Source of the DNA: Arcobacter sp. CECT 8983
GTDB taxonomy: Bacteria; Campylobacterota; Campylobacteria; Campylobacterales; Arcobacteraceae
DNA: 64,000 bases
Direction of reading: 5' to 3'
Assembly (NCBI RefSeq): GCF_004118855.1
Contig: NZ_PDKF01000024.1
Location: 62,001 to 126,000, forward strand
Of this stretch, positions 1 to 25,804 are shown piece by piece; the first letter of the stretch is position 1, and each line of letters opens with the position of its first letter. The notes under the pieces are model-generated. The model searched no databases. It was not told where the DNA came from and saw only the letters and a list, made by a program, of their open reading frames with translations. The position numbers and the translations under genes are program-made.

Positions 1-303
1 AAAATCAGCCTCTTTATCACTTCGTATTAAGATTAAAGAGTCATAGTTTAATTTTAAAAGCTCTTCTTCTAAGTTTTCAAAAGTGATTTTCTTTTTATTT
101 ACATAATAAAAATTCTGTGCATCAATATAGATTGTAAACTCTTTATTCTCTTTTAGTTTTTTAGCACTTTTAGTCTCAGGTAAAGATACAGGGATAACTC
201 CTTTAGCAATAAAAGTTGAAGTCATCAAAACTATTGCTAAAAGAACTAATAATACATCAATAAAAGGAATTACATTAATTGAATCAAACTTTTTAATCTT
301 CAT
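1..303 (-). CDS. exbD: ExbD/TolR-type biopolymer transport protein, partial
   Basis: Partial gene: about 101 N-terminal codons are present and the C-terminus lies beyond the left edge. The start (MKIKKFDSINVIPFIDV) reads straight into a single membrane segment (about residues 14-35) followed by a periplasmic stretch containing SLPET. This is the ExbD/TolR layout: a short cytoplasmic tail with the conserved membrane Asp (here IDVLLVLL), one TM helix and a periplasmic domain. ExbD works with ExbB to harvest the proton motive force for TonB. The ATG at 301-303 overlaps the exbB stop by 11 bp, so the two are translationally coupled at the end of the TonB-receptor operon. No tonB gene is visible inside the window; it may lie just beyond the edge. 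Confidence 0.88.
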   Translation of the reverse strand, partial: MKIKKFDSINVIPFIDVLLVLLAIVLMTSTFIAKGVIPVSLPETKSAKKLKENKEFTIYIDAQNFYYVNKKKITFENLEEELLKLNYDSLILIRSDKEADF

Positions 304-709
304 AGCTACTTTCTAAAACCTCTGCATATCTTGATAAAATATTATAAAAAATCATTGATATAATTGCTACAACAAGTCCTATTGCTGTTGCTTTAAGTGC
401 AAGGGCTAAAGAAGCCATAATCTTAGTTGCTTCAATATTTCCTTCACTCATAGTTATAAAAGTAAGCATGATTGCAAGAACTGTTCCAAGTAAACCAATA
501 TATGGAGAGTTTGATGCAATAGTTCCTATAAAAGTTAAGTTTTTTGTCAAGGCTACTTCTAATTTCTTTTTTGATTCATATTTTTTTACATCAAGTTTTC
601 TGTAAAAAAGAACTCTTTCTATAAAAAACATAACTGCAATAAAACTCATAACTACAAGTAAAGCAATCACACCATAATCAACTAGATTTTTTAATAATTC
701 GATATTCAT
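293..709 (-). CDS. exbB: ExbB/TolQ-type proton channel subunit (short form)
   Basis: MotA/TolQ/ExbB-family inner membrane protein of 138 aa, the short form usual in Campylobacterota and much smaller than E. coli ExbB. Three hydrophobic helices are visible: about 12-33, 66-88 (containing GLLGTVLAI) and 102-124 (ALALKATAIGLVVAI). With ExbD it forms the proton-driven motor that energises TonB-dependent outer-membrane uptake. It starts 4 bp after the polyferredoxin stop and overlaps exbD at its 3' end, so it is cotranscribed with the TonB-dependent receptor. A TolQ role in cell envelope constriction is possible by family, but the operon argues for transport. Confidence 0.9.
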   Translation of the reverse strand: MNIELLKNLVDYGVIALLVVMSFIAVMFFIERVLFYRKLDVKKYESKKKLEVALTKNLTFIGTIASNSPYIGLLGTVLAIMLTFITMSEGNIEATKIMASLALALKATAIGLVVAIISMIFYNILSRYAEVLESSYED

Positions 710-713
710 AAGT

Positions 714-2189
714 CTATCCCTTATTCTCTTGTTTTATTATCACTATATTTAAAGAAGAGTGATTGTTTGTTTGCTTTTGATGTTGTATATGATTGTGCTC
801 TGCTCTTTTTTGTGCTCCATATGTTTTAAATACATAACCTGTGTAAAAATTTAACCCCATATAAAAGATTATAAGTGCTGAAGCAAAAGGATATGCAAAT
901 ACTTTTCTAAGTTTTGTTGAATCTAAAAGTTTTATTCTAGCAATCATAATAATAAATGCCCAAATATATGCAAGATGATTAAACATTTTGAATATATGTA
1001 GCCATGAGTCCCTTCTTGTAGCAAGTGGTTCTATATAGTTAAAATTTAAAGAAAAGGCTTGAATAAAGCCATTTACTATATTTGAAGCATAATGTAAAAA
1101 GAAAAACTCAATAACATGAGATAATCCACCAATGATAAATAAAGGAGCAAAAGCATAACCTAAAGTATAAAAAGTTTTTTCATAATCAACTTTTAAAATC
1201 TTTGAAGCAATAAACATTCCACCCCTACTTGCAATTATTACAAAAAATATTGCATAAGAAAAAGCAAAAAAACTACCTAAATTAATATTTGTATCAAGAA
1301 GAGTACTAAAATAATTAGCTGACTTCATCCAAATAAAATTGTCTGCAATTGCGGTTCTATTTAATGCATGGCTAAAATTTATTGCAAAAGATAAAATTGC
1401 AGTTAATAATATAATTGTCCAAATTTCAATTTTTTGTATTTTAAATTTTTCGAATAACATATGAGAAGGTTTTTTAATTTTGAAAGCAACATTCTGACAA
1501 GAAACTGCACAATCCATACATAAAGTGCAATCCTCCATTGTTTTCTTCTTAGCAAAAGTAAAAGGTTTTAAATTATAAGCACATGCATTAGCGCAATCAA
1601 AACTTTCACATGAAGAACAACCTTCTTTATATGTTTCCAATTTTGTAAAGCTTACTTTTGAAAAGGCTTTTGTTACACTACCTAAAGGGCAAATATATTT
1701 GCAATAAGCCATATCTTTATAAATAAAAAAAACAACAAATGAAAGTATAGTTAATATAAAGAAAAATAATGCAGTATTTAAAGGTGTTCTATAAATACCT
1801 GGAAATGAAAATATTAAAAGCCAATATCCTATAATTAAGATTGATAAACCAATAAAAGGATTTTTTAATACCTCTGGCATTTTTTTATTTAATCCATATT
1901 TTGATATATATTTTCCTAAAAAACCATGAGGACAAATACCACAAAAAACTCTACCCAAACTAGCTAAAGTAATTACCATAAAAAATGGCCAAAACAGTCC
2001 CCAAAAAAGGCCTGTGGTAAACTTGTTTTCTAGTTTAGTTGGATAAACAAAACCAAAATATATTGCATAGATAAACAAAAATAACATAATTGTTCTAAAA
2101 ATCAAAAGAAAGCTTTTATTTTTAAATATAAAAGCAAGAAATGATATTGAAAAAATATCATTTCCATCTTTTTTAATAATTTTATTCAT
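714..2189 (-). CDS. NapH/CcoG-like membrane polyferredoxin (4Fe-4S)
   Basis: Integral membrane iron-sulfur protein of 491 aa, not a standard part of a TonB system. There are membrane helices at about 30-50, 62-80, 112-130 and 136-158, and four or more after residue 250. Cysteine motifs are CGICPHG (C83, C86), CKYICPLG (C163, C167), and two 4Fe-4S ferredoxin-type clusters (C191, C194, C199, C203 and C221, C224, C227, C231). The CxxCP sequences in membrane-embedded loops are typical of the NapH/RdxA/CcoG/YccM superfamily, which passes electrons across or along the membrane to periplasmic or metal substrates. It lies between the TonB-dependent receptor and exbB with short gaps (19 and 4 bp). I infer a reductase for the imported metal or metal-chelate. 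The family assignment is good; the substrate is unknown. Confidence 0.75.
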   Translation of the reverse strand: MNKIIKKDGNDIFSISFLAFIFKNKSFLLIFRTIMLFLFIYAIYFGFVYPTKLENKFTTGLFWGLFWPFFMVITLASLGRVFCGICPHGFLGKYISKYGLNKKMPEVLKNPFIGLSILIIGYWLLIFSFPGIYRTPLNTALFFFILTILSFVVFFIYKDMAYCKYICPLGSVTKAFSKVSFTKLETYKEGCSSCESFDCANACAYNLKPFTFAKKKTMEDCTLCMDCAVSCQNVAFKIKKPSHMLFEKFKIQKIEIWTIILLTAILSFAINFSHALNRTAIADNFIWMKSANYFSTLLDTNINLGSFFAFSYAIFFVIIASRGGMFIASKILKVDYEKTFYTLGYAFAPLFIIGGLSHVIEFFFLHYASNIVNGFIQAFSLNFNYIEPLATRRDSWLHIFKMFNHLAYIWAFIIMIARIKLLDSTKLRKVFAYPFASALIIFYMGLNFYTGYVFKTYGAQKRAEHNHIQHQKQTNNHSSLNIVIIKQENKG

Positions 2190-2208: not shown

Positions 2209-4080
2209 CTAAAAGTTTATAGTTATGCCAGTGTAATAATATCTTTCTCCAGGGTCATTAGGAGTACCTCTTGAAGTCATATTATATGGCATAGTATTAT
2301 TTGTTAAATTATCAATACCTAAGAATAAAGAAACATCATTATTTAATTTATAATCAAACTTTATATCTGCACTAGTATAATTACTATCAACATTAACTCT
2401 ATTTTCATCCTGATCGTAGTAATTCATGTATCTTTTTATATCTAAATATGCTCCAAATTTATTAATTTCATATGAAAGATTAGTTTTCCAAGTAGTTTTA
2501 GCACTACCTGTTAATCTTTCATTTGTTGTTTTATCTTTAGCATCTAGAAATTCTAATCCAGTATTAAATTTAAAACCATTTTGAAAGTTATATGATAAAG
2601 AAAGTTCTGTACCATTTATTTCTGATTTATCAATATTTTGGTATGTGTAATATGAAGTAAATCCAGACGTATTAGCAACATATGAATTAATTAAATTTTT
2701 TAACTCAGATCGATGATGAACTATTTTTAAGTCTAAATTATCTTTATTATATGCAATTGCAAACTCATAAGTTTTTGACTCTTCGGGTTCTAAGTCTTTA
2801 TTACCTGAAATATCTGAAACAAACGGTCCTCTTGATCTAGTAAAATGGCTATACATATTCGTAAAGCTAGGTGCTTTAAATGCTTCTCCATATCCTGTTC
2901 TAAAAGTAAAATTATCATATTTATACATAATTGATAATTTTGGGTTTACTGTACTTCCAAAATCACTAAAATCGTCATATCTAACACCTATATTTGTTGT
3001 TAAATTGTCTGTAATATTATATTCATTTTGAAGTAAAGCAAAATAGTTATCTCTTGTAGCATCTTTAGTATACATAGATACTTCAATATCATCTTTTTTA
3101 TATCCGAACCCTAAGATATTTGTACTGTTATCTGTAGTAAAATGTCTAAAATAATTATTAAACTCTAACTGTTTATAATTAGTAGTTTCTTTTCCTGTCC
3201 CTCTATTTACTTCAGTGTCACTTTTCCCATAACTTAAACTTGTATCGTATATGAACTCTTCACCTGTATATTTATAATTACTTGTTGCTTGATATCTTTT
3301 TTCTTTTTCATATGTTTCATTAGCTGATGTATTAATACCTTTATCATTTTGATTTGCATATTCTAATTTATTTGTAAGAATGCTATTATCATTAATCTTA
3401 ATTGTATGTCCATAGTTTAAAAATTTTCTTGACTCTTTTTTTAAATCTGTACTAACTTGACTTTTATCTTCTTTAAAATCTTCTTTTTTTCTCATTTCTA
3501 AAGCATAGTTATGTGTTACATCTCCAAAAGTTTTTGCTCCGCTAAACTTTGTAATATATGTATCTCTTTGACCAGTTTGATTTATACCAGATAAAAAAGT
3601 TAACTTATTATAATCTTTTTGCTTTTCTTTTTTTGTAATAATATTTATAACACCCGCTATAGCATCAGCACCATAAAGTGTTGACATAGGTCCTCTAACT
3701 ACTTCTATTCTTTCAATATCTTCAAGTTGAATTGATGTTAAATCAAAAGAACCATATTTACCTGTTCTTCTTAATCCATCTATTAAAATCAAAGTATGTG
3801 AACTATCAAATCCTCTTATTGATATAGAAGAAGTACTACCTGCATCTTTTATATTCAAACCTAAGACTTTATTATTTAATAATTGAGGAACACTTCTCGC
3901 ATATGTTTTTTCAATTGTTTTTTTATTAAGTACTTGTACACTTGCTTGGATATCATCAATGTTTTTTTCTTCACCAAATGATGTAGTACTAGAAACTAAA
4001 ACCTTTTCTAAATTATAAACATCTGAGTATGATATAGTAGAAATACATGCTAAAGCACATAGCGACAATCTAATTTTCAT
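2209..4080 (-). CDS. TonB-dependent outer-membrane receptor (CirA/BtuB-like)
   Basis: Outer-membrane active transporter of 623 aa. It has a Sec signal peptide (about 1-19, cleavage near SYSDV), a TonB-box-like stretch EKVLVSST just after it, a plug domain (about 40-150, with IRGFDSSHTLILIDGLRR and EVVRGPMSTLYGADAIAGVI), then a long beta-barrel rich in alternating aromatic strands. It ends in YYYTGITINF, whose terminal Phe is the usual outer-membrane assembly signal. The size and plug resemble colicin-I/vitamin B12/catecholate receptors, but the ligand cannot be read from sequence. It is preceded by four 11-bp repeats (4119-4162) and by its own two-component system, and followed by the polyferredoxin and ExbBD. 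Confidence 0.9.
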   Translation of the reverse strand: MKIRLSLCALACISTISYSDVYNLEKVLVSSTTSFGEEKNIDDIQASVQVLNKKTIEKTYARSVPQLLNNKVLGLNIKDAGSTSSISIRGFDSSHTLILIDGLRRTGKYGSFDLTSIQLEDIERIEVVRGPMSTLYGADAIAGVINIITKKEKQKDYNKLTFLSGINQTGQRDTYITKFSGAKTFGDVTHNYALEMRKKEDFKEDKSQVSTDLKKESRKFLNYGHTIKINDNSILTNKLEYANQNDKGINTSANETYEKEKRYQATSNYKYTGEEFIYDTSLSYGKSDTEVNRGTGKETTNYKQLEFNNYFRHFTTDNSTNILGFGYKKDDIEVSMYTKDATRDNYFALLQNEYNITDNLTTNIGVRYDDFSDFGSTVNPKLSIMYKYDNFTFRTGYGEAFKAPSFTNMYSHFTRSRGPFVSDISGNKDLEPEESKTYEFAIAYNKDNLDLKIVHHRSELKNLINSYVANTSGFTSYYTYQNIDKSEINGTELSLSYNFQNGFKFNTGLEFLDAKDKTTNERLTGSAKTTWKTNLSYEINKFGAYLDIKRYMNYYDQDENRVNVDSNYTSADIKFDYKLNNDVSLFLGIDNLTNNTMPYNMTSRGTPNDPGERYYYTGITINF

Positions 4081-4104
4081 TATTATCCTTAAAATTTTAT
4101 TAGA

Positions 4105-4110
4105 ATAATA
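4105..4110 (-). promoter_or_regulatory. Candidate -10 box of the TonB-receptor promoter
   Basis: On the minus strand TATTAT lies 8 bp downstream of the last 11-bp repeat and about 25 bp upstream of the receptor ATG. The ribosome binding site AAGGA follows before the ATG at 4078-4080. The spacing from repeat to -10 box matches that seen before the SNF transporter (24392-24436), which is the main support for this weak box. Confidence 0.4.
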
Positions 4111-4118
4111 AATTAGAT

Positions 4119-4162
4119 TTGTTAATTAATTATTAAATAATTGTTAAATAAATGTTAAATTT
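4119..4162 (-). promoter_or_regulatory. Four 11-bp direct repeats, candidate response-regulator operator
   Basis: Read on the plus strand the units are TTGTTAATTAA, TTATTAAATAA, TTGTTAAATAA and ATGTTAAATTT, without gaps, in the space between the kinase stop codon and the receptor start. Direct repeats at exactly 11 bp are the arrangement bound by tandem winged-helix response regulators of the OmpR/PhoB family, and such a regulator is encoded two genes upstream (5012-5671). Confidence 0.6.
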
Positions 4163-5022
4163 TACTTTTTTGATATTATATTCTTTAAATCTAAAATAAA
4201 TTTATTGCCATTTTCAATAGGTTCTATCTTAATAGTAATAAAATTTTTGTCACAAAACTCTTTTACTATAGAAAGCCCTAAACCAAAACCTTCTTTCTCA
4301 CTATTTTCTTGAAAATATTTTTCAAAAATAATAAACAAATTTTTCGTATCAATCTCTTTTCCAGTATTAAAAACTATTAGCTTTGTATCTTCAAAAGAGA
4401 TTTCAACAAGTCCATCTTTTTTAATATTATATTTTAAAGCATTTGATAAAAGATTATCTATAGTTTTTTTAAAACCATTTTTATCGCTTTTTAAGATAGC
4501 ATCTTCTTTTAAATCAACTCTAATTTCAATATCTCTTTTTATATCAGTAAACTTTTCTAAACTACTACTAATAAGCTCTTTTAAACTAAACTCTGTAATA
4601 TCAATCTTGTCAATCTCTTTTTTAATTTGATACTCCATATTTTCATATAACTTTAGCAGTTCATTTGAAGCTTTTTTTATTCTTTCCAATCTTTTTAAAG
4701 CTTTTTCATCTTCTATTTTTTTTTCTAACATTTGTGTATTTAAATTAATAGTTGAAATAGGAATGTTTAACTCATGTAAAGTCTCTTTTACTGTTTTTTG
4801 TAAATTTTCATCACTTTTAAAAAGTGGTTCAAAAATTGATTTACTAAGAAGCAGATATAAAATAAGTCCAAAGATTAAAACTGTAATTGTTATAAGTAAA
4901 AAAGTATTTTGATTAAACCCAAATATTGATGTTAGATAGTAGTTTAAAAATAAAGACAATAAAAGTACAAATACTATTACAATAGAGTTTGTTATAAAAA
5001 AATTTCTTTTTTTAAAGTTCAA
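4162..5022 (-). CDS. Sensor histidine kinase of the TonB operon
   Basis: Membrane histidine kinase of 286 aa. Two closely spaced TM helices (about 11-32 and 41-60) leave almost no periplasmic loop, so sensing is intramembrane, cytoplasmic or via a partner. The dimerisation/phosphoacceptor segment is ETLHELNIPIST with His83. The HATPase domain shows the N box (NLLSNALKYN) and the G box (FGLGLSIVKEF). The start is TTG at 5020-5022, preceded by AGGA with 7-nt spacing; it overlaps the response regulator by 11 bp, so the pair is coupled. Its place directly upstream of the TonB receptor suggests it controls that operon. Confidence 0.88.
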   Translation of the reverse strand: MNFKKRNFFITNSIVIVFVLLLSLFLNYYLTSIFGFNQNTFLLITITVLIFGLILYLLLSKSIFEPLFKSDENLQKTVKETLHELNIPISTINLNTQMLEKKIEDEKALKRLERIKKASNELLKLYENMEYQIKKEIDKIDITEFSLKELISSSLEKFTDIKRDIEIRVDLKEDAILKSDKNGFKKTIDNLLSNALKYNIKKDGLVEISFEDTKLIVFNTGKEIDTKNLFIIFEKYFQENSEKEGFGLGLSIVKEFCDKNFITIKIEPIENGNKFILDLKNIISKK

Positions 5023-5671
5023 ATTTATATCCTATACCTTTTAGATTTGTAATTGAATCTTTTCCAAATATTTTCTTTAAGTTATTGATATAAACTCTAA
5101 TAGAACCTTCACTATAATCTTCACTATAAGACCAAAGTCTATTTATGATCATATCTTTGGTAACTATTGCTTCTTTTTGTTCTAAAAATAGTTCTAGTAA
5201 GTCAATTACTTTACTTGTAAGGTTTAAATCTTTTTCATCTTTTATAAGTCTTCTATTTCTTACATCAAAAACCATATTATTAGGTAAATTTATTTGTTTT
5301 TTTAATTTACCACTTCTTTTTAATAAAGAGTTTATTCTAAGTAATAATTCATCTAAATCAACAGGCTTTTTTAAATAATCATCACAACCACTTAAAAAAC
5401 CTTTTGTTAACATCTCTTTATCTTTATGAGAAGTTAAATAAATAGTAGGAGTTGTATCATTGGCTTCTCTAAGTCTTTTTAATAACTCAATTCCACTTAT
5501 TTTTGGAACATTTATATCTAATAAATATAAATCATATTTTTCTTCAAAACAGTAGTCTAAAACCTCTTCTCCATCTTTTGCACATTTTACGGTAAAACCC
5601 TCATCACATAGAAAGTCTTCTAAGGTCTCTAAAAAAAGTTCATCATCTTCTAAAATTAAAATCTTTATCAA
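5012..5671 (-). CDS. OmpR/PhoB-family response regulator
   Basis: Two-domain regulator of 219 aa. The receiver domain (1-115) has acidic pocket ED at 8-10, phosphoacceptor Asp52 in LLDINVP, a conserved Thr/Ser in YLTSH and Lys in LKKPVD. A C-terminal winged helix (about 125-219) contains VYINNLKKIFG and ends in the typical LKGIGYKFEL. The start is TTG (5669-5671) with AGGA 7 nt upstream. It is the first gene of the six-gene operon and overlaps the kinase. The family binds tandem 11-bp repeats, which occur at 4119-4162 before the TonB receptor, so I infer it regulates receptor expression. Confidence 0.9.
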   Translation of the reverse strand: MIKILILEDDELFLETLEDFLCDEGFTVKCAKDGEEVLDYCFEEKYDLYLLDINVPKISGIELLKRLREANDTTPTIYLTSHKDKEMLTKGFLSGCDDYLKKPVDLDELLLRINSLLKRSGKLKKQINLPNNMVFDVRNRRLIKDEKDLNLTSKVIDLLELFLEQKEAIVTKDMIINRLWSYSEDYSEGSIRVYINNLKKIFGKDSITNLKGIGYKFEL

Positions 5672-10468: not shown

Positions 10469-10512
10469 TACATGATTTTTACATGATATTTACATAATTC
10501 TTACATAATTAC
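10469..10512. promoter_or_regulatory. Four 11-bp direct repeats upstream of the malic enzyme gene
   Basis: Plus-strand units TACATGATTTT, TACATGATATT, TACATAATTCT and TACATAATTAC follow each other without gaps, directly after the pgeF stop codon. The period of one helical turn and the conserved TACATRAT half suggest a regulator binding array of the OmpR/PhoB type, with a different recognition sequence from the array at 4119-4162. Confidence 0.5.
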
Positions 10513-24385: not shown

Positions 24386-24391
24386 CACTAA

Positions 24392-24424
24392 ATTTCATTA
24401 AAATTTCATTAAAATTTCATTTTA
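24392..24424 (+). promoter_or_regulatory. Three 11-bp direct repeats before the SNF transporter
   Basis: ATTTCATTAAA, ATTTCATTAAA, ATTTCATTTTA in perfect tandem, ending 6 bp before the -10 box TATAAT. The position over the -35 region is that of a class II activator site, as in PhoB-dependent promoters. Confidence 0.6.
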
Positions 24425-24466: not shown

Positions 24467-25804
24467 GTGACACGGTTTTCTAGAATAGGCTTTATTCTAG
24501 CAGCTGCAGGTTCAGCTGTTGGTTTAGGAAACATATGGAAGTTTCCATATGTAACAGGTGAATATGGTGGTGGAGCATTTGTAATTGTTTATTTGCTTGC
24601 TATCTTATTCATTGGTCTTACAATATTCATTGCAGAAGCAGTAATTGGACAAAATGGACAGTCTGATGTTTCTACCTCTTTTGTAAATTTATCAAAATCA
24701 AAAAACAAAAACTGGAAGTTTGCAGGCTTTATGGTTTTTACTGGTTTAATTATTCTTTCATTTTATTCTGTTGTTTTAGGATGGATTTTAAATTATGTAT
24801 TTACTTCTTTTTCAGCATTGCCAACGGAAGCAAAAGTTGCAGGTGCAGCTTTTGAAAAACTAATTTCAAATGATATAGGTTCGTTACTTGTATATCATAC
24901 TTTAATTGCTGGTTCAGTAGTCTATATTGTATTAAAAGGAATTAAAGAAGGTATTGAAAAAATAAACTTAATTTTAATGCCTTTATTAGGATTAATTCTT
25001 TTTGGTCTTTTAATTTATTCATTAACATTAGACTCTTTTTCACAAGCTGTTTCTTTTATGTTTTCTGCTGATTGGAGTAAAATAAATGGTGATGCACTTT
25101 TAGCAGCTTTAGGACAAGCCTTTTTTACATTGTCACTTGGTGTTGGTACAATTTTAACCTATTCTGCTTCTTTATCAGAAAATACTAATTTTATTAAAAC
25201 ATCAATATCTGTTGCACTTGTTGATACTTCAATTGCAATAATTGCAGGTTTAATCATTTTTTCATTTCTTTTTGAAGCTGGTGCTCCAAGTGCAGCGGGA
25301 CCTGGCTTAGTATTTATTTCATTGCCTGTGATTTTCTCTGGATGGGGAGTATTAGGTCAAGTTATTGCTTTTTCATTTTTTATTGCATTAATTTTTGCTG
25401 GTATTACTTCGGCTGTATCTATGATTGAGCCATCACTTAGATTTTTTATTGAAAGATTTAATATAACAAGAGCAAAGGCAACACTTATTTCTGGAACAAC
25501 ATTTTATATTCTAGGTATTGTTGCCCTACTTTCAATGAGTAAGTCTTTTTCAACAGAATTAACATTTTTTGGAAAAAATGCCTTTGATTTAATGGATTTT
25601 ATGACTTCATCAGTACTTATGCCTATTGCAGCTATTTTAACTTCTGTGTTCTTAGGATACTTTGTTGATAAACAAACTATTCAAGATAAATTTACTCAGC
25701 ATGTACCATTGGCTGTATTTAATATTTGGTATTTTTTAATTAGATATATTGTTCCTTTAGCAATTGTAGTTTTACTATTAAATAAAGTAGGTATTATTAA
25801 ATAA
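24467..25804 (+). CDS. Sodium:neurotransmitter symporter (SNF) family transporter
   Basis: 445 aa, LeuT-fold Na+-coupled transporter. The signature GSAVGLGNIWKFPYVTGEYGG in TM1 forms the Na+ and substrate site. About eleven TM helices can be traced, including LGQAFFTLSLGVGTILTYSA (TM6) and AFSFFIALIFAGITSAVSMIEP (TM8). Likely an amino acid importer (Trp/Tyr-type subfamily in bacteria), substrate not readable. Start GTG at 24467 with AAGGA five bases upstream. Monocistronic, with a clear promoter and repeat array (24392-24436) and terminator 25810-25837. Confidence 0.9.
   Translation: MTRFSRIGFILAAAGSAVGLGNIWKFPYVTGEYGGGAFVIVYLLAILFIGLTIFIAEAVIGQNGQSDVSTSFVNLSKSKNKNWKFAGFMVFTGLIILSFYSVVLGWILNYVFTSFSALPTEAKVAGAAFEKLISNDIGSLLVYHTLIAGSVVYIVLKGIKEGIEKINLILMPLLGLILFGLLIYSLTLDSFSQAVSFMFSADWSKINGDALLAALGQAFFTLSLGVGTILTYSASLSENTNFIKTSISVALVDTSIAIIAGLIIFSFLFEAGAPSAAGPGLVFISLPVIFSGWGVLGQVIAFSFFIALIFAGITSAVSMIEPSLRFFIERFNITRAKATLISGTTFYILGIVALLSMSKSFSTELTFFGKNAFDLMDFMTSSVLMPIAAILTSVFLGYFVDKQTIQDKFTQHVPLAVFNIWYFLIRYIVPLAIVVLLLNKVGIIK

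Follow-up and report, generated by a model that had tools for sequence, protein, structure and literature searches.

The pho box of PhoB consists of head-to-tail 11-bp units in place of the -35 element, which is replaced by PhoB at its promoters. The Pseudomonas systems PfeRS and PirRS are triggered by iron-siderophores, each serving a single receptor. The control of copper export is well studied, the control of bacterial copper uptake is not. CusRS, CopRS and PcoRS as well as CrdRS of H. pylori react to an excess of copper and switch on its export or detoxification (PMC7558416, PMC9449129), and the copper two-component systems named in reviews respond to excess (PMC7558416, PMC9449129, PMC10141476). 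The known control of copper receptors is exerted by CueR, a MerR-type regulator, or by the CruR upstream ORF (PMC7558416, PMC12914433); such copper-receptor loci sometimes include ExbBD-TonB, PCuAC and ScoI (PMC12914433, PMC7558416). A search of the open-access literature revealed no copper-shortage two-component system in Campylobacterota, which is weak evidence of absence, and no description of the TTAACA box presented here. The locus lies in a stretch of 64,000 nucleotides from Arcobacter sp. CECT 8983, henceforth the window.

Repeat array and gene neighbourhood

Between the stop codon of a sensor kinase gene and the start codon of a receptor gene, both on the minus strand, lie four tandem 11-bp units (4118..4161, minus strand) with the consensus (A/T)TTAACAnTTA. 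The minus-strand sequence of the array is AATTTAACATT-TATTTAACAAT-TATTTAATAAT-TAATTAACAAA. Its four TTAAYA cores are spaced by exactly 11 bp and span 4120-4158: TTAACA at 4153-4158 and at 4142-4147, TTAATA at 4131-4136 and, proximal to the promoter, TTAACA at 4120-4125. A preliminary description of this DNA had correctly placed four plus-strand units at 4119-4162, the final base touching the kinase stop codon (4162-4164). Tandem Repeats Finder reported the array unprompted (4119-4160, period 11, 3.8 copies, 87 % matches). The 4x11 periodicity score of the 82-bp gap was 54 of 66, a value reached by none of 2000 dinucleotide-preserving shuffles (mean 32, maximum 49), and the score of the array was the top value in the 64-kb window, where periods of 7 to 16 otherwise came nowhere near. 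The hexamer TATTAT, noted in the preliminary description beyond the array on the minus strand, is present at 4105-4110 as a -10 element, nine bases past the proximal TTAACA core, a gap equal to that of the other promoters described below. Further on the same strand, at 4085..4090, the receptor gene has the Shine-Dalgarno sequence AAGGAT. The array has the attributes of an OmpR/PhoB-family direct-repeat operator, tandem units at 11-bp spacing and a place in the -35 region with a constant gap to the -10 hexamer. It very probably serves as the site at which the neighbouring sensor-regulator pair acts, two dimers of the response regulator being the proposed occupants.

The gene order regulator, kinase, array and receptor on the minus strand was found as previously claimed. 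The regulator (5012-5671), proposed to bind the box, combines a receiver domain (Response_reg, 99 bits) with a winged helix (Trans_reg_C, 56 bits), both above the Pfam cutoffs, and has PDB relatives of the same family; thus, it belongs to the OmpR/PhoB family. It scored below the cutoffs for a PhoB equivalog (113.8 bits, cutoff 296) and for the CusR/CopR heavy-metal subfamily (TIGR01387, 126 bits, cutoff 279). No box was located before the regulator gene itself, thus there is no sign of autoregulation. A Na/Pi cotransporter gene is divergent from the regulator gene; the control by phosphate hinted at by this neighbour was unsupported, as no box lies between the two genes. The sensor histidine kinase (4162-5022, minus strand) has two transmembrane helices, a very short loop and the phosphoacceptor motif HELNIP. 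Its membrane part contains no conserved Cys, His or Met, thus the kinase need not sense copper directly and sensing may be indirect.

The receptor (2209-4080, minus strand) is a TonB-dependent outer-membrane protein of 623 aa, similar to CirA and BtuB, and its nearest solved relatives import catecholate siderophores or B12; a copper chelate is the proposed substrate. It is followed on the minus strand by a membrane-bound [4Fe-4S] NapH/CcoG-like protein (Fer4_5, 714..2189), possibly a periplasmic cupric reductase, by the ExbB energiser of the TonB system (293..709, TIGR02805 above the cutoff) and by an ExbD-like gene that runs off the window (1..303). A TonB-like gene comes after ExbD, outside the window (G000:C24:61265-61930).

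Two further 11-bp tandem arrays were observed in the window. Four units of TTACATnATTT at 10469-10510, approximately 105-146 bp upstream of a malic enzyme gene on the minus strand, probably serve another OmpR-type regulator, and locus L044 holds a match of three units. Three perfect units of AAATTTCATTA at 24390-24421, just upstream of a sodium-symporter-like gene (24467-25804), are again of the OmpR-type pattern, with a word of their own.

Boxes before copper genes and a small RNA

A genome search for the repeat, recommended in the preliminary description, detected TTAACA-N5-TTAACA only four times in the 2.74-Mb genome, always before copper-handling genes. Besides the site before the receptor/ExbB/ExbD/TonB operon of the window, one site precedes PCuAC-SCO1 (PCuAC 129 bits, SCO1-SenC 137 bits) and one an OprC-like receptor of 650 aa (L055), a candidate copper receptor. 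The nearest PDB chain of the latter is OprC, the CxxxM motif is kept as 'CPNRM', and the score against TIGR01778 (OprC/NosA) is 205 bits at a cutoff of 472. The fourth site lies before a small-RNA-like gene that precedes a UreH_2-type membrane protein (DsbD_2/UreH_2, 175 bits). The regulon and its link to copper go beyond the preliminary description, in which neither had been seen.

In 16 genomes of the genus (g1), the exact motif occurred 77 times and the reversed control 68 times. Raw counts are thus not enriched, and the case rests on context and spacing. Among 60 inspected sites with 11-bp spacing in the 16 related genomes, 57 were intergenic and 47 were located at most 250 bp upstream of a gene. 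The genes behind them coded mostly for TonB receptors, OprC-like receptors, PCuAC, NosL-type proteins, UreH_2 and ExbB, once for NosZ. With half-sites 10 bp apart, the same genomes presented 24 sites, of which 23 fell within genes and not one in a promoter. A loose search for TTAAYA-N5-TTAAYA with one mismatch was useless in an A/T-rich genome, its 555 hits equalling the control. A recurrent TTAACAAAAAATTAACA site approximately 4.3 kb from a LysR-type gene was left out of the regulon; it lies in a long ORF-less stretch, presumably beside an rRNA operon. In the other genera of the family, 14 of 17 OprC-like genes had a box with its spacing intact approximately 25-66 bp ahead of them, and nine of 12 PCuAC genes carried the box, eight of them 35-44 bp before the start, while two further PCuAC genes had a box with one mismatch. 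A box 111 bp upstream of nosZ itself was identified in locus L104 (G059:C7:57860), and by coordinates nosZ has a box closely upstream in several other genomes (e.g. G001, G004, G019, G023, G024, G035).

Alignment of 65 promoters on the box revealed a -10-like hexamer, T90 A78 A67 A63 A69 T76, nine bases past the second TTAACA. The best TATAAT-like match was at the 9-bp gap in 34 of the 65 promoters versus five of 65 after shuffling, and the window promoter fits the rule with TTAACA, nine bases and TATTAT. This geometry is that of a regulator replacing the -35 element. The targets, PCuAC, SCO1, NosL, OprC-like receptors, UreH_2 and NosZ, serve copper uptake and delivery, as is expected for a copper-starvation regulon.

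A regulon answering a respiratory signal, i.e., low oxygen, nitric oxide, nitrous oxide or the state of the quinones, would include copper genes because the cbb3 oxidase and NosZ need copper. The presence of NosZ and NosL-type genes among the targets and a kinase without evident metal ligands agree with such a signal. We regard it as rather unlikely: nosZ is absent from the genome of the window and from several box-bearing relatives, thus nitrous-oxide respiration cannot be the common purpose, and outer-membrane receptors together with a TonB system are more in keeping with a nutrient in short supply than with a gas signal.

A unit of approximately 90-130 nt follows many of the sites that stand 120-180 bp ahead of NosL-like or UreH_2 genes, as well as some sites that precede no such gene. 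In the genome of the window, this is a putative RNA gene of approximately 100 nt on the plus strand (G000:C8:469512-469620, equal to L056:3512-3620), with a hairpin carrying the loop CUCCUAC and an intrinsic terminator. Homologues were obtained at L061, L064-L066, L073, L075, L080, L086, L087, L096, L110, L113 and L117, and further at L048, L051, L052, L074, L079, L189 and L191-L202. The hairpin stem varies between genera, the loop keeps CUCCUAC, and a strong terminator follows whose stem shows covariation. Rfam contained no match to this RNA. A covariance model found matches in 62 of 104 genomes of the family at E <= 0.1, some of the weak ones being plain terminators; the low-scoring hits L190 and L203-L205 were rejected as terminators only. 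All inspected hits outside g2 that showed the hairpin had a box in front, one with a single mismatch. Genomes of g2 (Aliarcobacter-like) kept the hairpin, but not the preceding box, hence the RNA is not under control of the box everywhere. The CUCCUAC loop resembles the anti-Shine-Dalgarno sequence. A search for targets of the RNA identified none: among the first 30 of 103 AGTAGGAG sites, at most one or two were just before a plausible start codon.

Linkage to the kinase gene and conservation at the locus

In 22 of the 40 genomes with mapped coordinates, versus about two expected, the kinase gene had a box no more than 15 kb away, invariably on its own strand; close relatives among them are not independent, so that a formal probability would be too small. 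The island of response regulator, histidine kinase, box, receptor, NapH-like protein, ExbB, ExbD and TonB recurs in several genera and frequently continues with a second box and the RNA, NosL-like and UreH_2 genes. In two genomes (G014, G016), coordinates place the OprC-like gene next to the kinase gene in convergent orientation. Across 28 orthologues of the regulator, the recognition helix YSEGSIRVYIN is nearly constant, as is the box.

The box may be genuine and bound by another regulator of the OmpR family, with the nearby kinase-regulator pair a chance or partial neighbour. Each genome has many other sensor kinases, and four genomes maintain boxes without a detected kinase orthologue: G061 (91 % complete) and G074 (61 % complete) have boxes despite an undetected kinase, and the kinase is also missing from G088 and G101, whose boxes have one mismatch. 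However, all four are drafts, with completeness between 61 and 95 %, whereas in G069, which is 99 % complete and without the kinase, the PCuAC gene has no box. Together with the linkage in 22 of 40 genomes and the near-invariant recognition helix, this makes a foreign regulator improbable. The pairing of the OmpR/PhoB-type site with the regulator two genes upstream, put forward in the preliminary description, is supported by the linkage to the kinase and by the retention of the box with receptor or ExbB genes.

In relatives with a TonB receptor or ExbB gene after the kinase gene, the TTAACA units and the 11-bp spacing are mostly kept. Relatives with an SPFH gene after the kinase lack the box at that place; in many of these genomes it is found 1.5-2.5 kb further on, before receptor or copper genes. 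The intergenic region of the window (4081-4162) differs at a base or so from that of locus L044 (9836-9980), and the first 19 coding bases of the receptor gene are shared, but the receptor bodies are of different kinds, with a best local identity of about 24 %. Thus the promoter was kept and the receptor exchanged. In locus L046 (G081), the receptor and [4Fe-4S] genes are apparently missing between kinase and ExbB, and a short coding remnant follows the promoter. In L016 and L046, the receptor appears to have been lost, leaving a promoter remnant with a degenerate box only, now before ExbB. The array had been taken as showing that the receptor has its own promoter within the operon: the -10 hexamer at a fixed 9 bp and the promoter kept under an exchanged receptor favour such a promoter by comparison, while "showing" was too strong a word. 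An A/T-rich accident, or else a transcription terminator or a curvature element where the kinase gene ends, is an extremely improbable explanation of the repeats even for a region of about 90 % A+T in a genome where the reversed motif is equally frequent, since no shuffle matched the periodicity, relatives conserve the repeats only before receptor or ExbB genes and the spacing control, promoter-bound at 11 bp and not at 10 bp, contradicts it.

Proposed regulation and known systems

The adjacent OmpR/PhoB-type regulator is likely to activate a copper-acquisition regulon from this box. The array would serve as operator-promoter, on which the phosphorylated regulator, encoded two genes upstream, would bind head-to-tail to TTAACA units spaced by 11 bp, one unit per monomer and two dimers on four units. 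The bound regulator would occupy the -35 place, 9 bp from the -10 hexamer, and recruit RNA polymerase, and transcription starting there would drive the operon of receptor, [4Fe-4S] protein, ExbB, ExbD and TonB. The same box would control in Arcobacteraceae the OprC-like receptor, PCuAC-SCO1, NosL-type chaperones, UreH_2, nosZ where present and the small RNA. The kinase probably responds when copper, or respiratory enzymes loaded with copper, are in short supply and would thereby turn on copper scavenging. From the genomes we infer that this regulator binds the box, that it activates and does not repress, and that the signal is a lack of copper; for uptake genes with an operator at the -35 position, activation when copper is short is the natural interpretation.

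With a box that is tied to a single regulator pair and predicts genes of copper acquisition in many genera of one family, the sensing of copper shortage in Campylobacterota can be tested directly. The box offers candidate substrates for several unassigned TonB receptors, the boxes before nosZ tie the nitrous-oxide reductase to the same regulon, and a small RNA is brought in as part of the copper response. A more far-reaching proposal is tentative: a family-wide two-component system for copper shortage, in which one 11-bp box drives copper receptors, TonB machinery, chaperones, nosZ and an RNA of approximately 100 nt whose CUCCUAC loop could silence dispensable copper proteins. No bacterial copper-sparing RNA was found in the open-access literature; the proposed one would be the copper counterpart of RyhB or of the plant copper microRNAs.

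The locus resembles PhoB with its pho box and other operators of the OmpR/PhoB family in the head-to-tail 11-bp units, two or four in number, in the winged-helix regulator and in units that replace the -35 element approximately 9-10 bp from the -10 hexamer. It differs from PhoB in the word, TTAACA instead of the pho-box word, and in its targets, copper genes instead of phosphate genes. As in PfeRS and PirRS of Pseudomonas, an OmpR-type pair adjoins the gene of its TonB receptor, but the box is common to a whole regulon of copper type. The proposed two-component control of copper genes is shared with CusRS, CopRS, PcoRS and CrdRS of H. pylori; unlike in these systems, the targets serve uptake and delivery and there is no large periplasmic sensor in the kinase. 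The proposed control by copper of a TonB-dependent copper receptor has its parallels in CruR-CrtA of Bordetella and CueR-OprC of Pseudomonas, where an upstream ORF or a MerR-type regulator acts in place of the two-component system proposed here.
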